Made by a program: the position numbers and the translations under genes
NCBI RefSeq assembly: GCF_002753895.1
Contig: NZ_NJER01000001.1
Coordinates: 496,001 to 560,000 of the forward strand
From: Halobacteriovorax sp. JY17
Lineage (GTDB): Bacteria > Bdellovibrionota > Bacteriovoracia > Bacteriovoracales > Bacteriovoracaceae
Direction of reading: 5' to 3'
DNA: 64,000 nt
The notes under the pieces: model-generated
What the model was told of the DNA's origin: nothing
Databases searched by the model: none
What the model saw: only the letters and a program-made list of their open reading frames with translations
Shown here: piece after piece, positions 4,616 to 17,821 of the stretch
Position numbering within the stretch: the stretch's first letter is position 1
Layout: each line of letters begins with the position of its first letter

Positions 4616-5182
4616 GAGATGCCACTTCGGAGAAATACAATAGGTAAGGACTATACTATTCCATTTCTTAGAAGTCGTAGCGTAGAATAACCTCTTTAGT
4701 ACTTTGATCTGTTCTTTACTTATCTTTGAGTAAGGAAAGAAATCTTGGTGTATTGTTTCTAATGAACTTAGGTTAAAGTCATTTGGAGTTGTGATTTTAT
4801 GCTTCTTATAATAATGCTTCATTAGCTCTAAATCATTTACTATACTTTTACAGGTCTTCAGCATAAAGCCAGCTCTAAGTGAGTTAGAGTTCGCGCTCAG
4901 TTCGACTTTGTGATTATTCTTATTTCCAAAACATGAACCATCTATATTTGAAACGCTTGTTTGGTCTTTTCTCACTTGTTCGTAAATATCGCAAGGACCT
5001 CCAAAAATACTGATATTTGGAATGATAAACTTTCTAGTATAGCTCTTTACTTGTTGGCCAAATACTTCTAGTAGAATATTTTCTACTAAAAACCGGTTGG
5101 CCAATTGTTGCTTTCTCTCGATCGCTTCTAGGCCCTTACTGTTTAACAATAGTAAGATAAGACTAGCTATTATAAGTTTCAT
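4610..5182 (-). CDS. Small secreted protein of unknown function, last gene of DUF1501 operon
   Basis: 190 residues with an N-terminal signal peptide (MKLIIASLILLLLNSKGLEA). No known domain recognised. The mature part contains four Cys (PCDIYEQ, GSCFGNK, LKTCKS, LTYCIS), compatible with two disulfides in the periplasm. The ATG at 5182 has an AGGAGA site 6 bases upstream and lies within the end of the preceding DUF1501-like gene (20-base overlap), so it is translated as part of that operon. It may be an accessory factor of the two upstream proteins, from position only. Confidence 0.65.
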   Translation of the reverse strand: MKLIIASLILLLLNSKGLEAIERKQQLANRFLVENILLEVFGQQVKSYTRKFIIPNISIFGGPCDIYEQVRKDQTSVSNIDGSCFGNKNNHKVELSANSNSLRAGFMLKTCKSIVNDLELMKHYYKKHKITTPNDFNLSSLETIHQDFFPYSKISKEQIKVLKRLFYATTSKKWNSIVLTYCISPKWHLL

Positions 5183-6911
5183 GATTTTCTCCTATATTTT
5201 TAGCGAGCTCAACTATAGGAATAGCTCTTCCTTTTTCAACTTTTATAAGACTTGGTGAGCGTTTAATAATAGGTGGTATTCTAAGTAAACTCGATAAAGT
5301 TGAAGAGACGTGGCTAATCCCAATTTTCGAATTTAAACTACTCACTGGAGCACTATTTCCTATAGTTCCCCAGTTCTTATCTCTTTGATGAGAGCCTACG
5401 AGAATATTACCAAGTACTATCGGCCCCTGAATTATTCCTGAATAAAATGTTGAAACATGGGCCTGTTCATTATGATCACTTCCTGAGAGAGAGTTCTTCG
5501 GAACTCTATCAAACTCTGAAGTGACATGAATAATAGTTTCTTCAAAGAGAGACTTATGGTTATCAAGTTTGGTTGCCTTTAATACATTGATTAGTTCGTC
5601 TAGGCAGCTTGAAAAGATGTAGAAAAACTTAGAGCAGGTAAGAAGATTGATTAGAGAGCCTGTAGAATGAGAGTCAAAAGACAATTGAGGTCTTTCAAGG
5701 CCTGGAGCAGAAGTAGAAGTTATAGTAGTTTTGTTAGTGATTTTGTCATAACTCTTTTTAAGACTTTCTTCTTTGTAAGACGTTTTTGCCGAGACATTTC
5801 TAAAGATTTCTCCAATTTCATTCTTATTAGCGAAGACAATTGATGAGCTTAGTCCATACTTTGAAATAAATTCTGCCAGTGCAAAGTTCTGCGCAAGTTT
5901 TCCTACGTTTGCTGAGTCTAATAATTGTCGTAAGTCTTCTGACAGAATATAGATGTTATTAACTTTATATGGACCCAAAGCATCTTCAATTTCAATGTCT
6001 CCGTCTAGAGTTAGAGGAAGTGAAGGGGTGGGGATCGCTTTGTCATCAACGCCCTTTATTTTATGTTTTAGGCCAGCTGCGATAATCTCTTGATACTTTA
6101 AAATGAGAGAATCATACTCCGCCAAAAATGCTTCGATACTTTCTTTGAAGAAGATTCTTGCCCTTTTTAAATCTGATTTAAGGTTTTTTGAAGTCTCTGA
6201 CTGATTTAAGATATTTATAGCATTATCAAGGAGCTCTTCCATTTCTTTACTATTTTCTTTGTCGCCAGTTTTTAAATAAAATGGAGACAGTATATAGTCT
6301 AGATGATTTTCAATATCTCCTTTAACTTTTATATTTGAAGAAGCTCTTGACTTAAAGGCTCTGTTCACTGGAGTGTCTCCAACTGTGATGGATGTTAAAG
6401 GCTTTTTTGAGAGATCGGCTAATAAACCATCAATGCTATAGCCTCCAATACCAGGGGCGATCATTTTTGAAGAGTTCATTGGGTGACCGGTAGTCCCTTC
6501 TAAGTGTACTCCGCGAATTGTGAGAGAGTTATCTAAGAGATTTGTCATTTTTCTCTTGCTATGAAGTTCCTCTGACCAAAGTAATGGGACATGAGTTTTC
6601 TTATATTCAAATTGATAGAGCTTCTGTTGATCTAAGGGAGATGTTGGATCAAATTGATTGAACGTCATAGGGTTTTGAATGAATTCACTTCCATAAGGAT
6701 TTAAGAAATGGTCATAACACCACCTTGTGGGACCACCGTAGAAATTAAATTGAATATAATTTCTAGTCTTTGAAACCTTTGGTACGCCAAGGGGTTGGAA
6801 TTTATCCTCTTTGATTAAAGCACTAAGTAGCCTGTAGACAGGATAGGTTATGGCCGAACTAATAAATATTCCCTTTAGCAAATTTCTTCTATTCATTTGA
6901 TATTGGCCCAT
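5163..6911 (-). CDS. DUF1501-like exported protein with Tat-type signal
   Basis: About 580 residues. The N-terminus reads MNRRNLLKGIF, a twin-arginine motif followed by a hydrophobic stretch, so export as a folded protein through Tat is likely. The start may be the ATG at 6911 or the one at 6896 (MNRRN); neither has a clear Shine-Dalgarno site. After the signal comes FNFYGGPTRWCYDHF, comparable to the GGxSxxDxxD opening of DUF1501 (sulfatase/alkaline-phosphatase-like) proteins. Near the C-terminus are HVTSEFDRVP and GSDHNEQAH, matching the EFGRTP ... GxDH region of that family. It overlaps the CxxCH gene upstream by about 20 bases. In other bacteria DUF1501 genes commonly pair with DUF1549/DUF1800-type partners. 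Substrate unknown. Confidence 0.75.
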   Translation of the reverse strand: MGQYQMNRRNLLKGIFISSAITYPVYRLLSALIKEDKFQPLGVPKVSKTRNYIQFNFYGGPTRWCYDHFLNPYGSEFIQNPMTFNQFDPTSPLDQQKLYQFEYKKTHVPLLWSEELHSKRKMTNLLDNSLTIRGVHLEGTTGHPMNSSKMIAPGIGGYSIDGLLADLSKKPLTSITVGDTPVNRAFKSRASSNIKVKGDIENHLDYILSPFYLKTGDKENSKEMEELLDNAINILNQSETSKNLKSDLKRARIFFKESIEAFLAEYDSLILKYQEIIAAGLKHKIKGVDDKAIPTPSLPLTLDGDIEIEDALGPYKVNNIYILSEDLRQLLDSANVGKLAQNFALAEFISKYGLSSSIVFANKNEIGEIFRNVSAKTSYKEESLKKSYDKITNKTTITSTSAPGLERPQLSFDSHSTGSLINLLTCSKFFYIFSSCLDELINVLKATKLDNHKSLFEETIIHVTSEFDRVPKNSLSGSDHNEQAHVSTFYSGIIQGPIVLGNILVGSHQRDKNWGTIGNSAPVSSLNSKIGISHVSSTLSSLLRIPPIIKRSPSLIKVEKGRAIPIVELAKNIGENHETYNS

Positions 6912-8292
6912 TTGATGAAATATAATACTTAGATTTTATAATTTCCTCAATCGTCTTCAAGGTACTCTGATTTGTTTTCAAATCCTTTGTGAGCTTGATG
7001 AGGAAATCTCTTAGGTCTGATTCTTTATTCATAGAAGTAAAATTATTTAAGTCTATTCTTATACCTGTTAAGAAATAGAAGTATCTACTAATAGTACAAA
7101 GGTAGGGATCATCTAGTTTCTTAATTACTTCTCCTAGACGGTTTGAGTCACTGATCTCTTTATTGACTAATTTTCCTAAGTAGTCTCTAAAGTAGAGTCT
7201 CGAAGAATGCTTCTTCTGATAGAAGTCTGGATCTTTATCAGTGTACTGGTAATTTGAATTACTACTTTTTTTATATTGATAAATACCTCTAAAAACGTAG
7301 GCATTAGTATGAACTTCTCCAGCATTGAAAATTTCAAGATTACTTGTTAGGCTTGCGAATTGATCCATCGTCTCGTGACAGGCCATGCAACTTTTTTGAT
7401 TCCTAAAGCTTATCTTTGATTCTTTCTGAGGGTGAATATCTCTCTCTTCAATTACAGGAAGATCTCGGCAGAGAAAGTCTGAGAAGAAGTTACTCGCAAA
7501 TCGGCGATGGATTTTGTAGCCACCGTCAGTTTTTTCATTATCATGGCCAAGATTTAAAATGAGGTAGGGAACGCTACCAAAAGCTCCAGGGAATAAATTC
7601 TTAGTTAGAGAACTTTGGTCTAGTTTTTTTCCTTCTTTTAGCCTTTTAAAGTACGAATGTTCTTTAATTCTTTGAAATCCAATGAGCTCTCCGAATTCAA
7701 CAAGGGTAGGGTTCCAGAAGTATTCGTCGCCGTAGTCGTCGGGATTATCTTTTACTCCTCCTACGAGCCACTTTCTTAAGCCTGTTCCATCTATTTTAGA
7801 GCGCCTACCCTGGATATCTTTGTCATTACTATAAATATTCTCTTCGCTTCCTTTTCTCTTTGCCCAGATGGTGTCAGTACTTGTAAAGACTGAACTATAG
7901 GGAATATCTTTGCTTAGAAGTGCTACTGTATAGTAATAGGCCATCTGGTCAGCATCAGTGACATTTGTGACTCCGTGGTCTTGAGTTTCTCGGTTCAGAT
8001 TATATAATTTAAACCAGGAGTTATGTAGAGATTGAATATTTTTTAGGATAGCGATTGTTTTTGGGTTTTGTTCTTTTAGTTGAAGATTCTTGTTTAAGGA
8101 AGCCTTTTCCAATAAGTTAATACAGGCCTTCTGCGAAGAGACTTCACCACTTCTTATCTTAAGTAGCACCTTTGAGTCACTAGAAACTCTCTGGTTAGTA
8201 AATTGTTGATGACATTTAATATAAGTACTAATGTTCAAGTCTGCTGCGTAGACCGAACTAATAGATAGAAATGATAGAAGCACTTTAAACAA
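6889..8292 (-). CDS. Secreted protein with c-type haem motif (CMACH), DUF1588/DUF1592-like partner of DUF1501
   Basis: 467 residues beginning MFKVLLSFLSISSVYA, a signal peptide. The start codon is TTG at 8292 with GAGGAA a few bases upstream. The single CMACH motif (CxxCH) in KSCMACHETMDQF resembles the CxxCHxxxDPxG segment of the DUF1588/DUF1592/DUF1549 group, which accompanies DUF1501-type proteins. Covalent haem attachment is possible but not proven, since only one motif is present. First gene of a three-gene minus-strand operon with overlapping ends. What the pair does is not known; an exported redox or hydrolytic complex is the cautious reading. Confidence 0.65.
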   Translation of the reverse strand: MFKVLLSFLSISSVYAADLNISTYIKCHQQFTNQRVSSDSKVLLKIRSGEVSSQKACINLLEKASLNKNLQLKEQNPKTIAILKNIQSLHNSWFKLYNLNRETQDHGVTNVTDADQMAYYYTVALLSKDIPYSSVFTSTDTIWAKRKGSEENIYSNDKDIQGRRSKIDGTGLRKWLVGGVKDNPDDYGDEYFWNPTLVEFGELIGFQRIKEHSYFKRLKEGKKLDQSSLTKNLFPGAFGSVPYLILNLGHDNEKTDGGYKIHRRFASNFFSDFLCRDLPVIEERDIHPQKESKISFRNQKSCMACHETMDQFASLTSNLEIFNAGEVHTNAYVFRGIYQYKKSSNSNYQYTDKDPDFYQKKHSSRLYFRDYLGKLVNKEISDSNRLGEVIKKLDDPYLCTISRYFYFLTGIRIDLNNFTSMNKESDLRDFLIKLTKDLKTNQSTLKTIEEIIKSKYYISSNGPISNE

Positions 8293-8363: not shown

Positions 8364-10046
8364 TTATTTCTTTGAAAAGTCTAGGGGAATATACTTCAAG
8401 AGTTTTAGATGAGTCAGGACTTCTGGTCTATTCTTTAAGCCTTCATATATAAATGTATTATTTCCTGTACGATGTACAAGTTTTTTTACTTCCTTAATCT
8501 CTTTTTTTGACCACGTTCTTTTTAGCTCGCTCTCTATCTCTAACGCGCACTTTTTAGACGAACAGAGTTGATAGAGTTTTGGTGATAAGATCTCTAGACC
8601 GTAAATTTGATGGTACTTTGGAGCTTTTAATGGCTCTATTTCACTTCTCACTAAGTTTGAATACTCAGTTGAAATAACTTGATCGTATAAGTCAAAAAAA
8701 AGAAATTTGTCAGAGTCGCTGATGTACTTTGAGATAATCTTCCATTGATGAATTGGAAAGGTGTAGGAGATAAAATCCTTATCAGAGAAACCAAGGATTC
8801 GTGCAATCTTATGATTTAGTTTCTGAGCACCTTCTATTATTTTAGAAGGGTATGGAACTAATAATGATCTACTCATCCATTTATTTAACTTAACCGGTAC
8901 TCGACCTTGAATGCCAACAACTCTCTTATGGGGAAAGTTGGCTTTCTTTAAGAATTTGATAACAGCTCCGGCACAATTATTAGAAAAGAAAGTATACTTT
9001 CCAAGATCCTCAGAAGCAGCGCTCTTTATTTCTAAATTCTTTATAGAGAGTTCAATTGATGCTCTTTTTAGAATGGAGATATTCTCTAAGTACTCAAGAG
9101 TCATGGCATAGTATCCAATGGGCTCAAGAGCTTGATTAAATTTTTGAAAGAGCTTTATCCTATCTGTAGAGAACTTCTGCTGAGCTAAGTCTGTAGCAAC
9201 TTTTAAGTCCAGTGTTTCTAGACTCAAAATATCTGTACTACTTTCTACTTTCCATACTTCTTGGAAAAGATTGAGGACGATATCATGAGCTTCAACATCT
9301 AAAAGGTTGTAGGCCCTTGTGTATGCCTGCCTATAAAGAGCAGCATCTCTTTTTTCATTATTTTCAAAAGGAACTTCTTCCTTCTCTAGCAGTCCAAAAG
9401 AATGAATTCTCTCAACTTTAAATTCTTCATCAAAGAATTTAATTTCAAAGAGCTCATAATTATCTTCTCCAAAGAGTTTTTCTGCCTTCTTTAGCGCATC
9501 ATCTTTTGCTTCTTTAAGTGCCTTTTTATAAATGGTCTCTTTTGCAATATGAATTTCATTCCACCAATCATCTAGAGCATCCATAAGGGCCTGTTGCATC
9601 TGTGAATTAGAAGGAATAAGGTGTCTTTCAAGTGGGCGGGACTCTTCTTTTACATATTGATTCACAAAGAGTCGCAGAGATTTCACTTCAGGATAAACAC
9701 CATACTTCCCAATAACTCCGCCAATATTACTTGCTTTAGGACCATTAACATCGGCTACAAAACTTATAGTAATATCATTTCCCGGATCATCATCATTATC
9801 TACAAAGCGGAAAAGTGAATGTCCAAACTTAGATTCAACTCGCTCATCTGTGGCCGAAGCGATTATTAATTCGAGACCAATAACTTGATTGTTAGCGATT
9901 TTCTTTTTAAGCCTTTGAATATATTTCTTTGAACTCGTATAGAGTTCCTTCTTTTGAGCGTACCATTGAAGAAATTCAACAGAGTCAACTTCTTGTGAGA
10001 AGATACTCTTTGAAAAAAACAGTAAAAAGAGAAGAATTATTTTCAT
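8364..10046 (-). CDS. DUF4105 / Lnb-N-like periplasmic protein
   Basis: 560 residues from the ATG at 10046, chosen because it gives a clean signal peptide (MKIILLFLLFFSKSIFS); the frame is open further to 10154 but adds a charged Cys-containing leader. Two conserved segments are visible: KFGHSLFRF near residue 60 and FFSNNCAGAVIKFL near residue 360. They match the GHxxLR and NNCxxxxxxLL signatures of the DUF4105 / Lnb N-terminal domain, a papain-like circularly permuted Cys-His fold. In Lnb this domain belongs to lipoprotein N-acyltransferase. Lnb normally carries a membrane domain that is not evident here, so activity is uncertain. Divergent from the beta-barrel gene at 10203. Confidence 0.7.
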   Translation of the reverse strand: MKIILLFLLFFSKSIFSQEVDSVEFLQWYAQKKELYTSSKKYIQRLKKKIANNQVIGLELIIASATDERVESKFGHSLFRFVDNDDDPGNDITISFVADVNGPKASNIGGVIGKYGVYPEVKSLRLFVNQYVKEESRPLERHLIPSNSQMQQALMDALDDWWNEIHIAKETIYKKALKEAKDDALKKAEKLFGEDNYELFEIKFFDEEFKVERIHSFGLLEKEEVPFENNEKRDAALYRQAYTRAYNLLDVEAHDIVLNLFQEVWKVESSTDILSLETLDLKVATDLAQQKFSTDRIKLFQKFNQALEPIGYYAMTLEYLENISILKRASIELSIKNLEIKSAASEDLGKYTFFSNNCAGAVIKFLKKANFPHKRVVGIQGRVPVKLNKWMSRSLLVPYPSKIIEGAQKLNHKIARILGFSDKDFISYTFPIHQWKIISKYISDSDKFLFFDLYDQVISTEYSNLVRSEIEPLKAPKYHQIYGLEILSPKLYQLCSSKKCALEIESELKRTWSKKEIKEVKKLVHRTGNNTFIYEGLKNRPEVLTHLKLLKYIPLDFSKK

Positions 10047-10202
10047 AAATGAATTTCTAGCACAAGAAAATGATTTTTCCATGTAATATGAGTTATTTAC
10101 ACACTTTTTACATCGAAAAATCAATGGTTTAGGTATATATTTTATCCCTTTCATTAAATTTATATTCTAGTATATTTAAGGTAAATCTATTTAAGGAAGA
10201 AT

Positions 10203-11150
10203 ATGTTTTCAATTATAATGACTATTTTCACTCTCACTAGTTCTTTTGCAAATGAGCCGGCGCAAATAAATACTTCTCACCGCTTCTCTAATACCTCTGA
10301 TGGACTCAAAACAAAGACTACTTCAGTTGATTATAGAAGTAATCGGCGAGATATCTTTTGGTCGTACGAAGACGCCCAAGAGAGTGCTCACGACTTTAAC
10401 TTTGGCTTTACTAATACTGATGCGGAGTACTTAGGTGAAATATCTGGAAATAAACTCTATGCTGGTTATGGAAGAAAGTGGAATGCAAATTCATATACAA
10501 GTGGAAAGCTAGGCCTTCATAAACTAGATTATAAGAAGAAGTCTTCCACAACTCCTTTTGCTCAAATTGGGCAAAGAATTAGGCTTGATAAGAATACATT
10601 AGATCTAAATATTAATTACGATTTTCTCTTTATTAATGGAGGCGTTCCTGGGCCTTATGAGAATAAATTAAAGAGAATTCAAACAGACTTAAGAGGAGTT
10701 TACTCACCTAAAGACTTTCTTCGAATTCCTTACCAGCTAGAGTATTCAAAAATTAGTCAGAGCAACTCTAACAATCGACAAAGTATTTCTGTTCTTGGTG
10801 GCAGCTCTTATCCTATATGGTTTTGGATTGGTTACCGTGTGGAGAGACTAAGTTATGATAGGAGAGATTTAGGCTACTGGTCTCCTGAAAAATTTATTTC
10901 CCATGGTCCACAAGTCGAGTGGTCACAGACATTCTTCTCCAAGCTAACAGCAAAAGTTAGTTATCTTTATAGTTTTATTAAAGAAGATGACTTTGAAAGT
11001 GGAAACTCCTACTACGCCTCAACCGCTTTGGAATATGGCTCTCGAAACTCTTGGGTAGGAGGCGTGAGTCTCTTTAGAAATAAGTCTCAGCAAAACTCTA
11101 GTGAGTGGTGGAGTGAGGGAGGAGAGCTTTACTTCTCCTACTCATTTTAA
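10203..11150 (+). CDS. Putative outer-membrane beta-barrel protein
   Basis: 315 residues with a signal peptide (MFSIIMTIFTLTSSFA) and an AAGGAAG site ahead of the ATG. The mature sequence alternates polar and aromatic residues in short strands (YAGYGRKW, LNINYDFLF, VSYLYSFI, YYASTALEYG) and ends in YFSYSF, a C-terminal aromatic typical of outer-membrane barrels. No family recognised. It converges with the polysaccharide deacetylase gene (9-base overlap). A role as an export pore for the neighbouring polysaccharide system, analogous to PgaA, is possible, but the TPR domain of PgaA is absent. Confidence 0.6.
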   Translation: MFSIIMTIFTLTSSFANEPAQINTSHRFSNTSDGLKTKTTSVDYRSNRRDIFWSYEDAQESAHDFNFGFTNTDAEYLGEISGNKLYAGYGRKWNANSYTSGKLGLHKLDYKKKSSTTPFAQIGQRIRLDKNTLDLNINYDFLFINGGVPGPYENKLKRIQTDLRGVYSPKDFLRIPYQLEYSKISQSNSNNRQSISVLGGSSYPIWFWIGYRVERLSYDRRDLGYWSPEKFISHGPQVEWSQTFFSKLTAKVSYLYSFIKEDDFESGNSYYASTALEYGSRNSWVGGVSLFRNKSQQNSSEWWSEGGELYFSYSF

Positions 11151-12296
11151 GTATTTTTCCCAGACTTGATTCATGGTTAAAATTTCAATATTAGAAGAAC
11201 TTATGATTTTTGCAAGTTCTCTAAAATTGCTGGTTGAATAATCTATTTCATCTGTCGCACTTTCTTTAATATGGTGAAACATTAGAATAAGCCATTGATT
11301 ATTTTCTCTTGTTCTTTGGATAATCTCTTTAAGCTCTTTGGGAGTTGTTGTTTTTAAAACATTAAAGGCCCGAAGCTTATAAAGGTCAGCAGGAGGGATT
11401 GTTTCAATTCCTCCTGAAGCCAGCCTTGCTGTCGCAAACTTAGAGCTGACAACACTTACTGCGCTACTATTCGTTTTCCCTAGGGGGTAGGCCAGATGAT
11501 AATTGGAGCTCTTATATTTATTCTTCTTTAAAAAACTATGAATTTCGTCAATTTCTCGTCTTAGGACTTTTTGATTAAAGTGTGTAAAAGGTATTTCATG
11601 ATGAGAGTCGATATCCCAGTTTTGCTTAGAGAGGAACTTTAGCTCACTCGTAGTTAAGAAGCCTTTTGTGTTTAGTGAATTAGGCATAATATAAGCAGTC
11701 GCTGGAATATTATATTTTTTTAGTATTTTTGCCGCGAGGAGATTATCTTGGGGACCATCGTCAAATGTTAGACTGAGTACTCCTTTGCTCTTTTTCTTTG
11801 TTGTATCTACCGACCAGAGTGTAAATCTGGTCTCCGGCTTCTTCGCTGAGAAGTAGAAAGTTACATAATTAATTTTCTTAAGGGGTTTTCCTACTGCAGT
11901 AAGATTTGCACCAGATAGAGCGATCTTGGTTCTAGTTGAAGATTGAAGAAGATTAAATTCATAATCAAAGAAGATTGGAATATTAAAAGCTAGGTAGTCA
12001 TTAGACTTTCTGCTTTCCATGAGTCTTATTTCTAAACCATCTAGATTTCTTATATCGTCAACCATGAGATTAAAGAGTATATTATCTTCTTTCAAGTTAA
12101 GATTCTTTTTAGAAATATCAATTGTTAGAAAGGTCGGCTCTTTTGCACTTTTAGAAAATACGCTGACATTTTCATCTAGCTGTTGAAGCCTTCCAGAGTC
12201 CCACTCCACAAATACATCTTTCTTGTCGAAATCTGCCTGCAGATGAAGTGAGATGCAAAGAATACTAATAGACTTTAAAAAATCTTTGAATTTCAT
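11142..12296 (-). CDS. Polysaccharide deacetylase (CE4/NodB fold, PgaB N-domain type)
   Basis: Metal-dependent de-N-acetylase. The NodB catalytic core begins near residue 170 with LSLTFDDGP (motif 1, Asp pair). Motif 2 follows as SHHEIPFTH (His ligands), then HLAYPLG, where the usual RxPxG motif is replaced by a YPxG form as in PgaB/IcaB-type enzymes. The C-terminus has LILMFHHI. Start set at the ATG at 12296 because it gives a signal peptide (MKFKDFLKSISILCISL) and has a GAAAGG site; the frame is open to 12344. The first ~150 residues form a beta-rich domain of unknown type. It overlaps the upstream hydrolase gene by about 32 bases. Likely modifies a secreted amino-sugar polymer in the periplasm. 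Confidence 0.85.
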   Translation of the reverse strand: MKFKDFLKSISILCISLHLQADFDKKDVFVEWDSGRLQQLDENVSVFSKSAKEPTFLTIDISKKNLNLKEDNILFNLMVDDIRNLDGLEIRLMESRKSNDYLAFNIPIFFDYEFNLLQSSTRTKIALSGANLTAVGKPLKKINYVTFYFSAKKPETRFTLWSVDTTKKKSKGVLSLTFDDGPQDNLLAAKILKKYNIPATAYIMPNSLNTKGFLTTSELKFLSKQNWDIDSHHEIPFTHFNQKVLRREIDEIHSFLKKNKYKSSNYHLAYPLGKTNSSAVSVVSSKFATARLASGGIETIPPADLYKLRAFNVLKTTTPKELKEIIQRTRENNQWLILMFHHIKESATDEIDYSTSNFRELAKIISSSNIEILTMNQVWEKYLK

Positions 12297-13311
12297 ACCA
12301 TGCCTTTCTCTTCCAAAGAGCGTAGCCTGTTTCTCTTGGGCCATAGAGGTTCATCTGATTCTTATTTTGTGCTAGCTTTCTCCAGATGAAGATACCTTGA
12401 ATATTATCAAAGCTCTTTATTGCTTGAAGGGTTTCTCTATACGCATTTGCTTGTCTTCTTTCTTTGCCAGGAGTGAGATTTCTCCACTCGTAGGGTTCTA
12501 GGGTTCCTTTGCTAGATCCTGCGAAGCCAACTTCGTTTATAAAGAGAGGTTTCTTTAAGCGCTTAGCAAAATTTGAAAACTTTAAGAGCTTCTGTTTCTG
12601 GTAGTGATAGATATGTGAAGATTTGACGGAGTCTGGTATAGGTGAGTAGTAATCTAATCCGATATTATCTAAGAACTCCCAGATGGGAGTTTGAAAGAAT
12701 TCATTTTGACCTTTTATCGTCTCCCAATTTGCTCCGTAATTTATTGTACCTTTAAAGTTTTCTCTTATGCTTGAGATAATAGTTTGCCAGTGTTCTTTAG
12801 AAGACGAAGTTGTCAATTGACAGTATTCAGCACCAATTGTGAATGATTCGACTTTGTACTCTTCAAGAAATTGTGAAAACTCTACTAATTCTCTTTTAAT
12901 ATTTGTAAATGTAGACTTCTTGTCCTTAGGGTTCCAGTGACATCTCCACTCTTTGGTTTCTATATCAATATAATGTCGCACCGAAACTTGAAAGCCTTGT
13001 CTCTTTGCAGCTGTTATGGCCATTTCTAGAGATTCTAAAGACGGAGTATAGCTTGAGCTACAGTCAATATTGCTTGATTGAAGATTTTTCGTTTGGCAGG
13101 AATAGAGAAAAGTCGCAGTATTTGCATTCAGTAGCTTCAATTCATTTAGGTAAACTTCCACATTGCCTTTAGTGTAGCTATTTCTATCATAACCTGTGAG
13201 GACAAGTGAGCTCGTATTCTTGATCGAAGTATTTTCCTTAAATATTGGCAAATTAGCGCAAGAATAAGAGATTAGGCAAATGAAAATAATTCCGAACATT
13301 TTTGAAAGCAT
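12265..13311 (-). CDS. Clan GH-A-like glycoside hydrolase lipoprotein (GH113-like)
   Basis: 348 residues. The hydrophobic N-terminus ends in ISYSC, a plausible though non-ideal lipobox. TIM-barrel landmarks: SVRHYID, SFTIGAEYCQ (Glu after strand 4, candidate acid/base), GLDYYSP, FINEVGFAGS (Glu after strand 7, candidate nucleophile) and IFIWRK near the end. This arrangement fits clan GH-A and resembles GH113-type mannanases. Ends within the start of the deacetylase gene, so the two are co-translated. In PgaB a deacetylase and a TIM-barrel hydrolase are fused; here they are separate neighbouring proteins. Substrate is not known. Start could also be the ATG at 13299. Confidence 0.7.
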   Translation of the reverse strand: MLSKMFGIIFICLISYSCANLPIFKENTSIKNTSSLVLTGYDRNSYTKGNVEVYLNELKLLNANTATFLYSCQTKNLQSSNIDCSSSYTPSLESLEMAITAAKRQGFQVSVRHYIDIETKEWRCHWNPKDKKSTFTNIKRELVEFSQFLEEYKVESFTIGAEYCQLTTSSSKEHWQTIISSIRENFKGTINYGANWETIKGQNEFFQTPIWEFLDNIGLDYYSPIPDSVKSSHIYHYQKQKLLKFSNFAKRLKKPLFINEVGFAGSSKGTLEPYEWRNLTPGKERRQANAYRETLQAIKSFDNIQGIFIWRKLAQNKNQMNLYGPRETGYALWKRKAWYEIQRFFKVY

Positions 13312-13365
13312 TTCTGTATTATACTCTATATAAAAGAAAAATTCTTTAGAATAATTGGAGTACCC

Positions 13366-14271
13366 TTGGTTAATTCAAATGATCTTGAAAAGAAGGTTGA
13401 TAAGAAGAAAATTGTCGTTATTGACGATGAGTTAGTGACAAGGAAAATAGTTGAAAGAGCGCTTGAAAAGACTTTCGATGTTTATATTGTCACTAATATT
13501 TTTGAATCGATCAGGGTTTGCGAAATACAAATGCCTGATCTTATTCTTTTAGACTTACTAATGCCAAGTGTAGATGGTTTTGAAATCTTACAACTCTTAA
13601 AGCATCATGCAACTCTCTGTGATACACCTGTTATCTGCATGAGCTCTACTGAGGTGAAAGAAGATCGAGAAAGGGTTAGAGCGCAAGGAGCAATAGGGTT
13701 TATTAAAAAGCCTATTACCATTAAAACACTCTCTTTTGATATCAATCAAATTCTTGATTCAGTGACTAATATTATTTCTTCAAAGAAGAATAAAGTCGAT
13801 TTTATTACATCTTTTAATTTAGCAGAGAAAGATAAGTATATTAATTCAATAATATCTAATATCCCTAAGGGGGAGAAGGTTATCTTTCTATCATGGACTA
13901 GGGGAGACTACTTCTATGAAGAGAATGAATCTGTAAGGAATCTAATTGATGATGAGAGCCTCGTCTTCTTAGAAATTAAACCCACTCTAATAACTAAGTT
14001 CTCGTATATGCAGGAATTAATACCTCTCTTAGATGATTTGATAGGACTTTCTGGACAAGAGCATAGAGAGTCTCACTTAGTTTTTGATGAGCCTAGAAAT
14101 CTATTGAATATTCAAAATACTGATAAGAGTATCTCTCAGGCCTATAAAATTTCTCAGATATTTCACAATACTTTCAAACAAATTACTTATATTAATTCAA
14201 GACCTAAAGAAGATAGTGAACAACTCTTTTTAAATAAGATTGGAAAAATTCTAGTGGGAAATAGAAAGTAA
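13366..14271 (+). CDS. Response regulator with unusual C-terminal domain
   Basis: Start is TTG at 13366, supported by GGAG five bases upstream. Residues about 15-135 are a receiver domain: VVIDDE (acidic pair), LLDLLMPSVDG (phospho-acceptor Asp), CMSST (switch Ser/Thr) and GFIKKPI (conserved Lys). The remaining ~160 residues are not a DNA-binding, GGDEF or kinase domain that I recognise. They read as an alpha/beta fold (KVIFLSWTRGDYF, SLVFLEIKP, HLVFDEPRNLL). It is the first gene of an operon with the GT2 synthase (1-base overlap), so it probably regulates polymer synthesis, perhaps by direct contact. Confidence 0.8.
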   Translation: MVNSNDLEKKVDKKKIVVIDDELVTRKIVERALEKTFDVYIVTNIFESIRVCEIQMPDLILLDLLMPSVDGFEILQLLKHHATLCDTPVICMSSTEVKEDRERVRAQGAIGFIKKPITIKTLSFDINQILDSVTNIISSKKNKVDFITSFNLAEKDKYINSIISNIPKGEKVIFLSWTRGDYFYEENESVRNLIDDESLVFLEIKPTLITKFSYMQELIPLLDDLIGLSGQEHRESHLVFDEPRNLLNIQNTDKSISQAYKISQIFHNTFKQITYINSRPKEDSEQLFLNKIGKILVGNRK

Positions 14272-15572
14272 TGAAGAGTAATGTCTTAAACATTATAAGT
14301 ATTGTAACCATTACTATCATATGTTCTCTACTTACTATTACTTTCTATTTGAATATTCCAAGTAATTGGAAATTTGAAAACCCTTACGCTACTTTTGTTG
14401 CAAGTATAATGCTTTACTACTTAATACTTATTTTTATTAGAACATTTATTCTTCTTATTCTCTCTTTCTTAGAGATTGTCTTTTGCAAGAAATCAAGAGA
14501 GGTTAAATCTTTTCCTCTTGTTACCATCATCATTCCTGCCTTCAATGAGGAGAAGGTTTTAATTCCAGCTATTGAGTCTGTTTTAAAAATTGATTACCCA
14601 AATCTTGAAATATTAGTTGTAGATGATGGCTCCACTGATAACACTTTTGCTGTTGCAAAAACAATGGAGAAACATCAGCAAGTGAGAGCTATTCACCAGT
14701 CTAATGCAGGAAAGTCCAATGCGCTAAATTATGGTATCTCTCAGGCAGTGGGAGACTACTATGTTTGCATGGACGCGGATAGTGTTCTAAGTGAAAATTT
14801 ACTGCTCGAGGCCATTCCTTATTTTGAAAGAGATCCCAATTTAGCTGCAGTGGCCGGCTCTGTGGAAGTCGGAAATTCAAGAAATATCCTCACTGCATTT
14901 CAGAAATTGGAATATATCATTGGCTTAAACTTTCATAAGAAGGCCCAGTCTTTTTTGAATATGGTCACTATTGTACCAGGCCCTATAGGAGTATTCGATA
15001 GACGAAAGGTATATGGCATTGGTGGTTATAGCTCTGATACTTTTGCAGAGGATAGTGACTTGAGCATGAGACTTCTAATGGAGGGGTATAATATAAAGTA
15101 TTGCGATAAGATTTCTGCAGTCACCGAAGCTCCAGATGAGATAAATGCTCTGATCACTCAGCGCTATAGATGGTCAAGAGGGATGGTACAGTCAATCTTT
15201 AAGGGAATAGGGCTGTTGAGCATGAATTTTAGTGCTCGCGGTGCTTTTGTTGTCACTTATATGTTCTTTGAAACGATAATGATTCCTCTCATTAATTTTT
15301 CTTTTATTGTTCTAACTTTAGAGTTTGCACTCCTCTATGATATAGCAGATCTTATGGGTCCTTACTTTATTGGATTAACTCTTCTGGATGTAGCTCTTTG
15401 CTTTTACTCTATAATTACGGAGAGGAGAATATTTTCACTACTTATACTTAGTTTCTTAAACCGCTTGACCTATGGACTTATTTTAGAGGTAATTCGTTTC
15501 TTTTCAATTTTTGATGAGTTACTTAAAATACCTATGAAGTGGGGCGTTTTAGTTAGAAAAGGATTGAATTAA
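14271..15572 (+). CDS. Processive family 2 glycosyltransferase (PgaC/IcaA-like)
   Basis: 433 residues: two N-terminal membrane segments (about 7-29 and 39-70), a cytoplasmic GT2 domain, then several C-terminal membrane segments. GT2 landmarks are complete: IIIPAFNEE, VVDDGSTD, MDADS (DxD), FAEDSD (TED-type base) and QRYRW (QxxRW of processive synthases). This is the architecture of beta-1,6-GlcNAc and related exopolysaccharide synthases in the inner membrane. The ATG overlaps the stop of the response regulator by one base and the next gene starts right after its stop. The sugar cannot be assigned from sequence alone; the nearby deacetylase makes an N-acetylated amino sugar likely. Confidence 0.85.
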   Translation: MKSNVLNIISIVTITIICSLLTITFYLNIPSNWKFENPYATFVASIMLYYLILIFIRTFILLILSFLEIVFCKKSREVKSFPLVTIIIPAFNEEKVLIPAIESVLKIDYPNLEILVVDDGSTDNTFAVAKTMEKHQQVRAIHQSNAGKSNALNYGISQAVGDYYVCMDADSVLSENLLLEAIPYFERDPNLAAVAGSVEVGNSRNILTAFQKLEYIIGLNFHKKAQSFLNMVTIVPGPIGVFDRRKVYGIGGYSSDTFAEDSDLSMRLLMEGYNIKYCDKISAVTEAPDEINALITQRYRWSRGMVQSIFKGIGLLSMNFSARGAFVVTYMFFETIMIPLINFSFIVLTLEFALLYDIADLMGPYFIGLTLLDVALCFYSIITERRIFSLLILSFLNRLTYGLILEVIRFFSIFDELLKIPMKWGVLVRKGLN

Positions 15573-17558
15573 ATGGATATAAAAAACTTCTTTAACATTT
15601 TATTATTGGCGATATCTTTAACGACAATATTGGTGACTCTCGTGAGTTATATTGTCTTTAAATTAAGACTTGCTTCAGCCAAGCGCACCTTAACAGATGA
15701 TCCTCTTGAGGGAGCTTTTTTTAGAAGATTCTCTCCCTTGATCCAAAAGAGTTTCAATGAACAAAGAGAGAGACAAGATAAAGATAATAAAAAGAAAGTT
15801 TCATTTAAAGTAAAATTTGTCTCTCTCTTCTTATTTCTTTTTACGGTTATTGCTAGTCTACTTCTCTTTGAGGATTATTTTAGCTATAGAAGAGTGCTGT
15901 CAGATAGAGTGTTATCGGCAAGTAATTTTAGAGAACTTGTTAAGCAAGGTCACTTAAAGACGTATACTTATACACCTCGTGAAGAGAGTGCTGTTATTTT
16001 AAAAATGATTTCTAGAAATACAGTAGATCAGAGAGAATATCTTTTAGGACAATTAAGAAAGCAGAATTTTTGTATTATTTCTACGCCGAGGGCACTTAGA
16101 TTTTCAAAAGAGAATCATTCATTGGCCCTATTACAGTGGAAAGACTTCTTTAAAAGAAATAATTTAAATTATAGAGTGAGAAACTCTATTTTAGAGTCTT
16201 CTAATTGCTTGAGTATTTATCCACATATCCTTTCTCTTAGTAACTCTCAAAGGAAAGTTTTAAAAGAGAGTAAGTATCCATTTCTTGTCACTGGAGGATT
16301 TGGGGAAATTGATGGTCTAGGTGGAGAAGTTGAAACGAGTCTACTTGAAGATTTATTAGGTAGAAAAATTCAATCTGAAGATTCAGCACTTCCGACTCTG
16401 ATAAGTTCTGAGAGAGATTATCTCTGGGAAATTGATGGGGGGAGCTATTTGCCCTGGCTTCCTATAGATATTAGTTTTGCTCACGTGACTTCTCGTGAGG
16501 CTAATATTCTCTCTTCTAATTACAATGGGAGAGTTCTACGGAAGAATTCAAAACTTCTTAGTCGTGAAGTGCGAGAAGAAAAGTTAACTTGGACTTCTCT
16601 TGATCCTATCGATCATCCTTATTCTGACTTGGTCTTTTTAAATATCTTTGCAAAAATGAAGTCAATTCCAGTCTTTAAAATCGCAAACCATAGAGATTCA
16701 AAAACCGGAGTGAGCTTTGTTTACAGACAAGATCAGCCAAGTGACGATTTGAAAGATGCAAGAGAACTCTTTGCACCTCTTAAAGGAGCGTGGACACTCT
16801 TTACCAATAATTTCTCCTATGAAGACCTAGATGCAAGGACTTCAAAAGAGGCCACTTCAGAAGTCGCTATCCTAACTTCTCCTAATCATAATTTTGAAAA
16901 ATTAGATAATAGAAGCACTTTTAATCTTGTTGAAAACGTAAGATTAAAGCTTGAAGAATTAAGCTTCTCAGGAGTTAAGGGATTAACTAGCCACAATGAC
17001 TTCTTGAGTGATGCCTTACTCGATGCCTCAGACCAGAATAAGTTAACTTATCTCTATGGAACAACGAAGGAGATTTCTTATTCGCCGGTTTTATTATCGG
17101 GATTAAATTACTTCTTAGTGCCAAAGATGTTTAAAAGTTTAAGAGAGCTCTTAGATGACAAGTCTCTTTCAACAGCTGATGATTTAGTTAGATCACTAGA
17201 AGAAATTTTCTCAGACTCTCAGTCAGTGGGAGGCCTTGCCATTTATGATCTCTCTTCTCTAGGAGTGAGTGACTATATGGCCAAAGAAGCATTCGAAGAA
17301 ATTCTCTCCAAGGTTAAAGATAATTCTCTTGGTTTAGGAGAAATTATTAAGTGGAGAAGAGCTAAGGAAAATTTAAGAATTGCTGGAAACCCTTTAAAGA
17401 ATGATTTTGAATTTAAGATAGAAAATTCAGGAAATAGAGATGCTGAGAATTTTAGAATTTTGCTTGAAAGAGACGGAAAAAGGGAAGTATTGCTTATTGA
17501 TAAAGTGAATTCAGAGAAAGAGCTTCAAATAAATGCAAGCAATTACCTAGATCGATAA
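15573..17558 (+). CDS. Large membrane-anchored protein of the exopolysaccharide operon
   Basis: 661 residues starting immediately after the GT2 stop codon. Two N-terminal membrane segments (about 7-29 and 86-104) with a basic cytoplasmic loop between them, then a ~550-residue extracytoplasmic part. The latter shows alpha/beta-type segments (FLVTGGFGEIDG, LPWLPIDISFAHV, AILTSPNHNF, GLTSHNDFLSDALLD). The alternation of Asp/His-containing turns with strands resembles a diverged deacetylase or TIM-barrel fold, but I cannot place it with confidence. The final ~80 residues look like a small beta domain. By position it is likely a periplasmic processing or co-polymerase subunit. Confidence 0.7.
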   Translation: MDIKNFFNILLLAISLTTILVTLVSYIVFKLRLASAKRTLTDDPLEGAFFRRFSPLIQKSFNEQRERQDKDNKKKVSFKVKFVSLFLFLFTVIASLLLFEDYFSYRRVLSDRVLSASNFRELVKQGHLKTYTYTPREESAVILKMISRNTVDQREYLLGQLRKQNFCIISTPRALRFSKENHSLALLQWKDFFKRNNLNYRVRNSILESSNCLSIYPHILSLSNSQRKVLKESKYPFLVTGGFGEIDGLGGEVETSLLEDLLGRKIQSEDSALPTLISSERDYLWEIDGGSYLPWLPIDISFAHVTSREANILSSNYNGRVLRKNSKLLSREVREEKLTWTSLDPIDHPYSDLVFLNIFAKMKSIPVFKIANHRDSKTGVSFVYRQDQPSDDLKDARELFAPLKGAWTLFTNNFSYEDLDARTSKEATSEVAILTSPNHNFEKLDNRSTFNLVENVRLKLEELSFSGVKGLTSHNDFLSDALLDASDQNKLTYLYGTTKEISYSPVLLSGLNYFLVPKMFKSLRELLDDKSLSTADDLVRSLEEIFSDSQSVGGLAIYDLSSLGVSDYMAKEAFEEILSKVKDNSLGLGEIIKWRRAKENLRIAGNPLKNDFEFKIENSGNRDAENFRILLERDGKREVLLIDKVNSEKELQINASNYLDR

Positions 17559-17821
17559 CGGATACTTCTATTATCTTCAGAAGCTTGGAGTTCTTCAGCT
17601 TCTTCCTTTTTTAATGCGCTGCTCTTTAGACCAATACTATCTTCAATAATCATAGTTTCTTGTTTAGGAGCAATCTTCTTCTTTGGAGCTAGAACTTGCC
17701 ATTGGCTAAGCTCCACATTCTCTGAAGCGCTTCTTAGACTACTGAGCTCGTCTTGCATGGAGATTTCCGCAAAAATATTAATACTTAATAAGAAAATTAG
17801 GGTTGAAGCCTTGCCTAGCAT
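17543..17821 (-). CDS. Small secreted protein, unknown
   Basis: 92 residues with a signal peptide (MLGKASTLIFLLSINIFA) and a short charged mature part rich in Glu, Lys and Ser. GAGGA precedes the ATG. No family recognised. It converges with the exopolysaccharide operon, overlapping its end by 16 bases. The overlap and short length leave some doubt, but the signal peptide and ribosome site favour a real gene. Confidence 0.5.
   Translation of the reverse strand: MLGKASTLIFLLSINIFAEISMQDELSSLRSASENVELSQWQVLAPKKKIAPKQETMIIEDSIGLKSSALKKEEAEELQASEDNRSIRYRSR

Follow-up and report, generated by a model that had tools for sequence, protein, structure and literature searches.

What kind of polysaccharide machine is encoded by six neighboring genes of Halobacteriovorax sp. 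JY17 that recall, in part, the pga operon of Escherichia coli? The genes form one locus at positions 10203-17558 of a stretch of 64,000 nucleotides, called the window here (contig NZ_NJER01000001.1 of assembly GCF_002753895.1, positions 496,001 to 560,000 of the forward strand). In E. coli PgaB, the deacetylase and the hydrolase (a PNAG-type CE4 domain and a GH153 domain) are one polypeptide. An earlier account drawn from the DNA letters, the sequence-only reading, saw in the window a variant of synthase-dependent secretion in which the functions of PgaB are split between two genes. The analysis presented here keeps the variant, on the strength of an export barrel without TPRs and a GT2 synthase on the PgaC side, and gives up its basis in a split PgaB. 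On balance, and with some reserve, we regard the locus as a synthase-dependent exopolysaccharide machine of Bdellovibrionota-type bacteria with a PelA-like partner, modification in trans, and a regulator. The variant is conserved, is built from Pga-like and Pel-like parts plus a response regulator, and is new in that make-up. The gene order, predicted folds, motif loss, and regulator linkage described below are computed. The features of the locus are as follows.

10203..11150, plus strand: candidate export barrel without TPRs, 16 strands, PgaA/BcsC/PelB-like fold (AF2 model, Foldseek, VIA)
11142..12296 (called from 12344), minus strand: secreted CE4/NodB-type deacetylase with an N-terminal extension and a variant metal site (Pfam Polysacc_deac_1, PF01522, E 4.8e-11)
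12265..13311, minus strand: GH113 glycoside hydrolase, probable lipoprotein (PF22612, E 2.9e-31)
13366..14271, plus strand: response regulator, a receiver and an output domain of ~162 residues, with a TTG start (PF00072, E 5.7e-19)
13783-14268, plus strand: output domain of the regulator, of no known family (no Pfam or PDB relative)
14271..15572, plus strand: membrane GT2 polysaccharide synthase, PgaC-related (PF00535, E 3.7e-33; TIGR03937; tree)
15573..17558, plus strand: membrane-anchored PelA-like protein of 661 residues with a degenerate CE4 domain, a pseudo-deacetylase (AF2, VIA, Foldseek, motif audit)
15573..15977, plus strand: N-terminal part of the 661-residue protein, comprising a first membrane segment (TM1), a basic loop with LEGxFFRRFxP, a second membrane segment (TM2), and a long helix (hydropathy, charges)
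16059..16667, plus strand: ThuA/GATase-like alpha/beta domain, residues 163-365 of the same protein (VIA)
16698..17366, plus strand: degenerate CE4/NodB domain, residues 376-598 (VIA, Foldseek, motifs)
17370..17537, plus strand: C-terminal domain rich in beta strands, residues 600-655 (AF2 model; alignment with PelA 9cgy)

The Pfam matches bear out the identities first proposed for the deacetylase, the GH113-like hydrolase, and the GT2, and Pfam has no family for the proteins encoded at 10203 and 15573. The open reading frames (ORFs) lie at the coordinates first given, with one correction: the deacetylase had been called too far upstream, and translation probably begins with codon 17, the ATG at 12296, which reduces the overlap with the GH113 gene from 80 to ~32 nucleotides. 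The response regulator at 13366-14271, a member of the conserved core, was absent from the earlier account.

A conserved cassette

The core of the locus consists of the regulator, the GT2 synthase, and the gene for the 661-residue protein. A reading of gene neighborhoods finds the three adjacent in 15 of 15 cassettes, which span four families of the phylum (f1, f6, f8, and f26). The barrel gene lies beside the cassette on the same contig in 11 of the 15; the other four contigs are short or end beside the cassette. Among the contigs of the set, L026, L030, L032, and L125 stop inside or beside it. Because the gene order is kept in relatives, the locus is not a chance assembly. The regulator and GT2 genes overlap by one base and the GT2 and 661-residue protein genes abut, and hence the three probably form one operon, with GGAG preceding the TTG start of the regulator.

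The prevalence of the parts varies. Among 129 genomes of the class, 13 have a match to the 661-residue protein, or 12 without G031, where the match covers 93 residues, contains five stops, and does not count as a member. In the family, 15 of 125 genomes have the GT2 at an E value of 1e-50; 12 of these carry the cassette type, and three have a type B locus only. The corresponding counts among 125 family genomes are 18 for the barrel, 10 for GH113 (the match in G069 included), and eight for the separate deacetylase at E 1e-10. The output domain of the regulator is found in 15 of 339 genomes of the phylum, one of them (G071) with a weak fragment, and adjoins the GT2 and a 661-type gene in all 14 clear cases. 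Relatives that carry names are labelled as Bacteriovoracaceae, Halobacteriovoraceae, Oligoflexia, Deltaproteobacteria, or Proteobacteria metagenome-assembled genomes.

GH113 and the separate deacetylase are add-ons to this core. Among cassettes they are found in the window's genus and in L032, and both are present in four type A loci (the window, L021, L022, and L032). Type B loci (L089, L091, L092, and L093) harbor the barrel, GH113, a GT2 with a membrane protein of 94-95 residues, and two deacetylases that flank a protein of 347-395 residues without a family; neither the cassette regulator nor a 661-type protein is present in these four. The small membrane proteins were considered as PgaD and rejected, as the three scanned gave no family match of weight. 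A third type of locus (type C), at L090:3106-6408 in genome G076, pairs a GT2 with a 652-residue relative of the 661-type protein in which the CE4 domain is intact; the locus lies next to the gene for a FecR-domain protein and has no cassette-type regulator. The window genome has no full second copy of the GT2, its other GT2 matches being partial and at most 34% identical.

A probable PelA-like partner of the synthase

The sequence-only reading assigned the 661-residue protein an unknown fold, a description that structure prediction replaces with three recognizable domains. In the AF2 model (pLDDT 74.8, pTM 0.73), two long N-terminal helices lead into an alpha/beta domain of ThuA-like fold, after which come a CE4/NodB domain and a beta-rich end. 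In VIA comparisons, residues 163-365 align with a domain of a GH42 enzyme (5xb7; Z 15.9, root-mean-square deviation (rmsd) 2.9, 184 aligned) and with the ThuA-like 4pxy (Z 13.9), and residues 376-598 align with the CE4/NodB structure 3rxz (Z 16.1, rmsd 3.5, 221 aligned); for this model, as for that of the barrel, such assignments hold among the listed folds. The top Foldseek match of the whole model is 7bkf (E 1.2e-5), the CE4 pseudoenzyme BA3943 of Bacillus, which shares the CE4 fold and differs in being single-domain by title, with no synthase locus context known here.

PelA comprises GH166, ThuA-like alpha/beta, esterase, and beta-rich domains, an organization called unique among solved structures in PMC12022489. 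The 661-residue protein matches the last three domains of PelA (Pseudomonas aeruginosa and P. thermotolerans) in the same order, and PelA 9cgy is the one listed VIA row that spans residues 165-661 of the model (Z 12.6, 356 residues). It differs from PelA in having no GH166 domain; in its AF2 model two helices, predicted to hold it in the inner membrane, precede the alpha/beta domain that begins at residue 163. The esterase sites differ as well: PelA (CE21) is without the MT3 arginine, while intact 661-type relatives carry RPP as in CE4; in the window copy the site is gone.

The membrane-proximal loop is basic, with 11 K/R and 7 D/E. Because of this charge pattern, the loop is predicted to be cytosolic and the rest of the protein periplasmic. 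LEGxFFRRFxP is the most conserved stretch scored (0.75), with TM1 at 0.70 and other regions at 0.33-0.49, and a related motif is present in the L090 relative. In place and topology, the N-terminal helices are like PgaD.

Decay of the fused CE4 site

Of the 14 661-type sequences, eight retain HxxxH, RPP, the late HT, and a first motif of the DxE type, and six do not, namely the window copy, two sisters in its genus, and the copies of g40, f26, and f8. Restricted to cassettes, the motifs are intact in seven of 13 scorable copies, the cut genes of L030 and L032 having been left out of the scoring; the eighth intact sequence comes from the type C locus. None of the four scored motifs survives in the window copy: where an intact relative has DSEDKF, HTKDH, and RPPKEE, the aligned columns of the window copy are without the Asp, any canonical His, or RPP. 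Pfam Polysacc_deac_1 matches six of the 10 members of the first 661-type alignment and gives no match to the window copy. On the GT2 tree, degenerate copies are spread over at least three places. Among intact copies the CE4 domain has a mean pairwise identity of 0.352, above that of the alpha/beta domain (0.262); among degenerate copies it drops to 0.23 and is below the alpha/beta domain, which is level between the two groups (0.256 in degenerate lineages).

A separate CE4 gene is present in four of five evaluable degenerate loci (the window, its two sisters, and f8), and the separate protein of f8 (L126_2) keeps canonical motifs. No such gene was detected in the five evaluable intact loci (g8, g46, g35, g35b, and f6; 7-19 kb read) by a screen that relied on our own hidden Markov models (HMMs) and phmmer, with Pfam applied to chosen neighbors and not to every ORF. 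CE4 decay thus goes together with a separate deacetylase gene in the genus of the window and in one case from another family. This suggests a move of deacetylation from cis to trans, which is likely for the window's genus and is not a rule. That the fused deacetylase domain, carried on the membrane partner of the synthase, decayed in this lineage is a better statement of the case than a split PgaB. As a side observation, PIG-L deacetylase and glucosamine-6-phosphate isomerase-type genes lie at L027:12251-13577 and L028:6355-7681, identified by Pfam in L027 and by sequence likeness only in L028.

The separate deacetylase and the hydrolase

The deacetylase at 11142 contains the motifs TFDD, AYPLG, and LMFH and keeps both MT1 Asp, the first MT2 His, and the late His; residues D195, D196, H248, P287, G289, and H357 are invariant in 12 of 12 family members. 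Its nearest PDB structure is 4hd5 (E 6e-5). The MT5-like HH stands at the C-terminal end (ILMFHH), and PNAG deacetylases have the reverse motif order according to PMC10967932. K-12 PgaB is found neither by blastp nor by a family HMM, and with the motif order reversed the protein can no longer be called PgaB-type. The PgaB hydrolase family PF14883 is present in none of the 120 family genomes searched, with a positive E. coli control. These three results speak against a split PgaB, which was rejected. What stands of the earlier proposal is that deacetylase and hydrolase are separate, overlapping genes, and that the hydrolase is GH113 and not of the PgaB type.

The hydrolase matches the GH113 profile PF22612 with 109.3 bits against a cut-off of 27. 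It aligns with the beta-1,4-mannanase 5ylh (E 7.6e-8), and both Glu that are mutated in the deposited chains are Glu in the window. As the catalytic Glu is kept relative to solved mannanases, the substrate need not be a GlcNAc (N-acetylglucosamine) polymer. The lipobox is weak in the window and better in the L089 and L091 relatives.

It is possible, if rather unlikely, that the polymer depends on the GT2, the regulator, the 661-residue protein, and the barrel, and that GH113 and the CE4 protein are unrelated catabolic or prey-wall enzymes lying between them. Bdellovibrio deacetylases act on prey walls, the solved GH113 relatives are mannanases, and most cassettes are without GH113 and this CE4 family. 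The two families nevertheless recur beside the GT2 and barrel in four type A and four type B loci, and in another lineage the hydrolase slot is occupied by a GH18-like protein (L023, between barrel and regulator; E 8e-9).

The synthase and its relation to PgaC

The best NCBIfam family of the GT2 is PgaC_IcaA (TIGR03937), at 182.9 bits against a cut-off of 422, and the protein is 31% identical to K-12 PgaC (E 1e-34). Its motifs are intact (DDGS118, DADS168, EDSD260, and QRYRW297), its hydropathy peaks lie near those of K-12 PgaC, and membrane segments are present, consistent with a processive-type membrane synthase. Together with a barrel closest to PgaA, these matches would suit a divergent but plain pga operon, as in the sequence-only reading, in which a PgaC orthologue makes poly-beta-1,6-GlcNAc and PgaB is split in two. 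This is improbable given the phylogeny and the gene content. In a tree of 30 rows, the window GT2 falls in a phylum clade (20 rows, support 96/96) with a sister group (80/81) of CE4-GT2 fusions, GH18-CE4-GT2 fusions, a Halorussus GT2, and a Mesorhizobium GT2, whereas K-12 PgaC, a plasmid PgaC, and a Lactococcus GT2 form a clade of their own (100/99). PF14883 is missing from the family as noted above, the CE4 gene has a different motif order, a PelA-like partner is present, and PgaD (PF13994) is absent from the window's own genome, the one genome searched (0/1; E. coli control positive).

BcsA and NodC stand outside in the tree (91/80), joined on long branches; the name NodC is presumed, as the sequence was chosen as the best GT2 match of a pSymA stretch without a gene table, and hyaluronan synthase was left out. 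The description of the GT2 as PgaC-like is upheld in that it falls on the PgaC side of BcsA and the presumed NodC, so that the placement far from such synthases which would have refuted the sequence-only reading is not seen; with respect to orthology, it appears PgaC-related and sister to another clade. The fusions of Kocuria, Sulfitobacter, and Novosphingobium are the nearest GT2s outside the phylum in this tree and likewise place CE4 beside GT2. They differ in being single polypeptides, and neither barrel nor regulator is annotated in the Kocuria and Sulfitobacter stretches. For the rows of Sulfitobacter and Novosphingobium, the name GH18-CE4 is presumed from protein length.

Compared with PgaABCD of E. 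coli K-12, the locus shares a PgaC-side GT2 with the DDG, DAD, ED, and QxxRW motifs, a PgaA-like barrel of 16 strands, and the presence of CE4 and hydrolase genes. It differs in the lack of a TPR domain, a PgaD family protein, and GH153, and in a CE4 protein that is not of the PgaB type; a PelA-like membrane protein and a response regulator are present instead. A survey of pga operons reports rearranged operons without pgaB or pgaD, and no operon of the window's make-up is among its available passages (PMC7112194).

The outer-membrane barrel

The sequence-only reading proposed a candidate outer-membrane barrel without TPRs at 10203, and the predicted barrel does form. The AF2 model, built with the window protein and six relatives, has 16 strands (pLDDT 82.7, pTM 0.77). 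The top Foldseek match is 4y25 (E 3.5e-10, TMq 0.75), which we take to be the PgaA barrel (database label: bacterial polysaccharide outer membrane secretin). The VIA comparison gives Z 24.0 for 4y25 (rmsd 2.9, 276 aligned, 10% identity) and 23.6 for both BcsC and PelB. The N-terminus is signal-like and the final residue is Phe, as read from the sequence. Sequence searches with the protein return no relative. No TPR match is found by Pfam in the cassette proteins and no helical repeat in the barrel model; the genome elsewhere was not searched for a TPR protein.

The reading that no polymer is secreted, with the barrel as an unrelated porin and a cassette product that stays bound to the cell or in the periplasm, gains from barrel relatives that occur without the GT2/661 cassette (L094, L095, and L096) but is very improbable, as all five VIA rows with Z of at least 23 are the polysaccharide exporters PgaA, BcsC, and PelB, the next fold, OmpG and other porins, drops to 18.1, and the barrel keeps its place beside the cassette in 11 of 15 cases. 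The cassette-free barrel genes lie at L094:8641-9627, L095:7821-8873, and L096:8608-9666, with small CE4 proteins on the same stretches.

The response regulator

Residues D20, D63, and K115 of the receiver are invariant in 12 of 12 rows. Profile searches with the output domain detect no Pfam or PDB relative and no DNA-binding match; a KaiC/MEDS-like domain, suspected from reading, found no support in them. The regulator probably sets the activity of the synthase on a phosphorelay signal, and transcriptional or other control may be involved. Genes for a hybrid histidine kinase, receivers, and small HPt proteins lie beside two cassettes (L126:7539-14078 and L023:2-5743). It is possible that these neighbors form a phosphorelay that feeds the cassette regulator.

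Proposed mechanism

We infer the identity of the polymer, its extrusion, the docking and scaffolding of the partner, trans-deacetylation, and regulation. In the favored model of a synthase-dependent exopolysaccharide machine, the GT2 would polymerize an amino-sugar polymer and extrude the chain through the inner membrane. The 661-residue protein would be its constant partner, docking on the synthase through the N-terminal helices and the cytosolic LEGxFFRRFxP loop and receiving the emerging chain with its periplasmic ThuA-like, CE4-like, and beta domains. According to the abstract of PMC9384988, a periplasmic TPR scaffold is present in each of the PNAG, alginate, cellulose, and Pel systems. 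The 661-residue protein may fill the guiding place of these scaffolds in the Pga, Pel, Bcs, and alginate systems, with the chain leaving through the TPR-less 16-strand barrel. About half of the scorable lineages have a fused CE4 domain that looks catalytic. In the window's genus the domain would be a pseudoenzyme retained as a scaffold or polymer binder, and the GH113 hydrolase and the neighboring CE4 protein would modify the polymer in trans. Synthase activity would probably be set, on a phosphorelay signal, by the response regulator, the gene of which overlaps that of the synthase. A GlcNAc-type polymer and a phosphorelay fit the GH18-like protein of one lineage and the kinase, receivers, and HPt proteins beside two cassettes.

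Several observations weigh against this model. Two of the five genomes in the window's genus (G044 and G046) are without these genes, and the locus is therefore accessory. Three of the four loci that combine a degenerate site with a separate CE4 gene belong to one genus, so that the association amounts to two independent cases. The g40 locus (L029) is degenerate yet has no separate CE4 gene detected in 18.4 kb, a genome with intact CE4 (G022, g8) carries a CE4 gene and GH113 elsewhere, and a PIG-L deacetylase is convergent to the cassette in two intact g35 loci (L027 and L028). In 12 of 12 members of the separate deacetylase family, MT2 is without the second metal His at its canonical place, and P252 is invariant near there; this family would have either an unusual metal site or lost activity, and the window's protein may be weak or inactive. 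The mannanase relatives of GH113 count on the same side. The alignment with PelA 9cgy has an rmsd of 11.7 and ranks 50th, the high value probably reflecting a different placement of domains. Homology of the N-terminus with PgaD was rejected, as hhalign against two PgaD and the four type B proteins of 94-95 residues gave nothing significant. The polymer chemistry of the locus is presumptive.

A bolder version is offered tentatively. The output domain might bind the GT2 or the basic loop of the 661-residue protein and gate synthesis directly, without transcription, in place of c-di-GMP; the tethered PelA-like protein would replace the TPR scaffold and, in this genus, act as a pure pseudoenzyme scaffold with a separate deacetylase.

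If the favored model is true, a TPR-less barrel together with a membrane-tethered PelA-like protein would represent another way across the periplasm, and a route between modular secretion systems. A response regulator dedicated to the synthase would offer a means of control other than c-di-GMP. The repeated loss of the CE4 site provides natural experiments on the role of the domain without catalysis. In the literature, covered in part, no exopolysaccharide system of such a kind is described for Bdellovibrio, Halobacteriovorax, or Bacteriovorax.

Neighboring genes

A gene for an Lnb_N domain protein at 8364-10154 is divergent from the barrel gene and keeps the same place in L021 and L022. Farther upstream, 5163-8292 encodes in tandem a DUF1501-like protein (below the cut-off) and a possible CxxCH-bearing protein, an arrangement that we take to be typical of Planctomycetes-style pairs. 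At the other end, a 92-residue protein that looks secreted (17543-17821) is convergent with the end of the 661-residue protein gene and is retained in L021 and L022.

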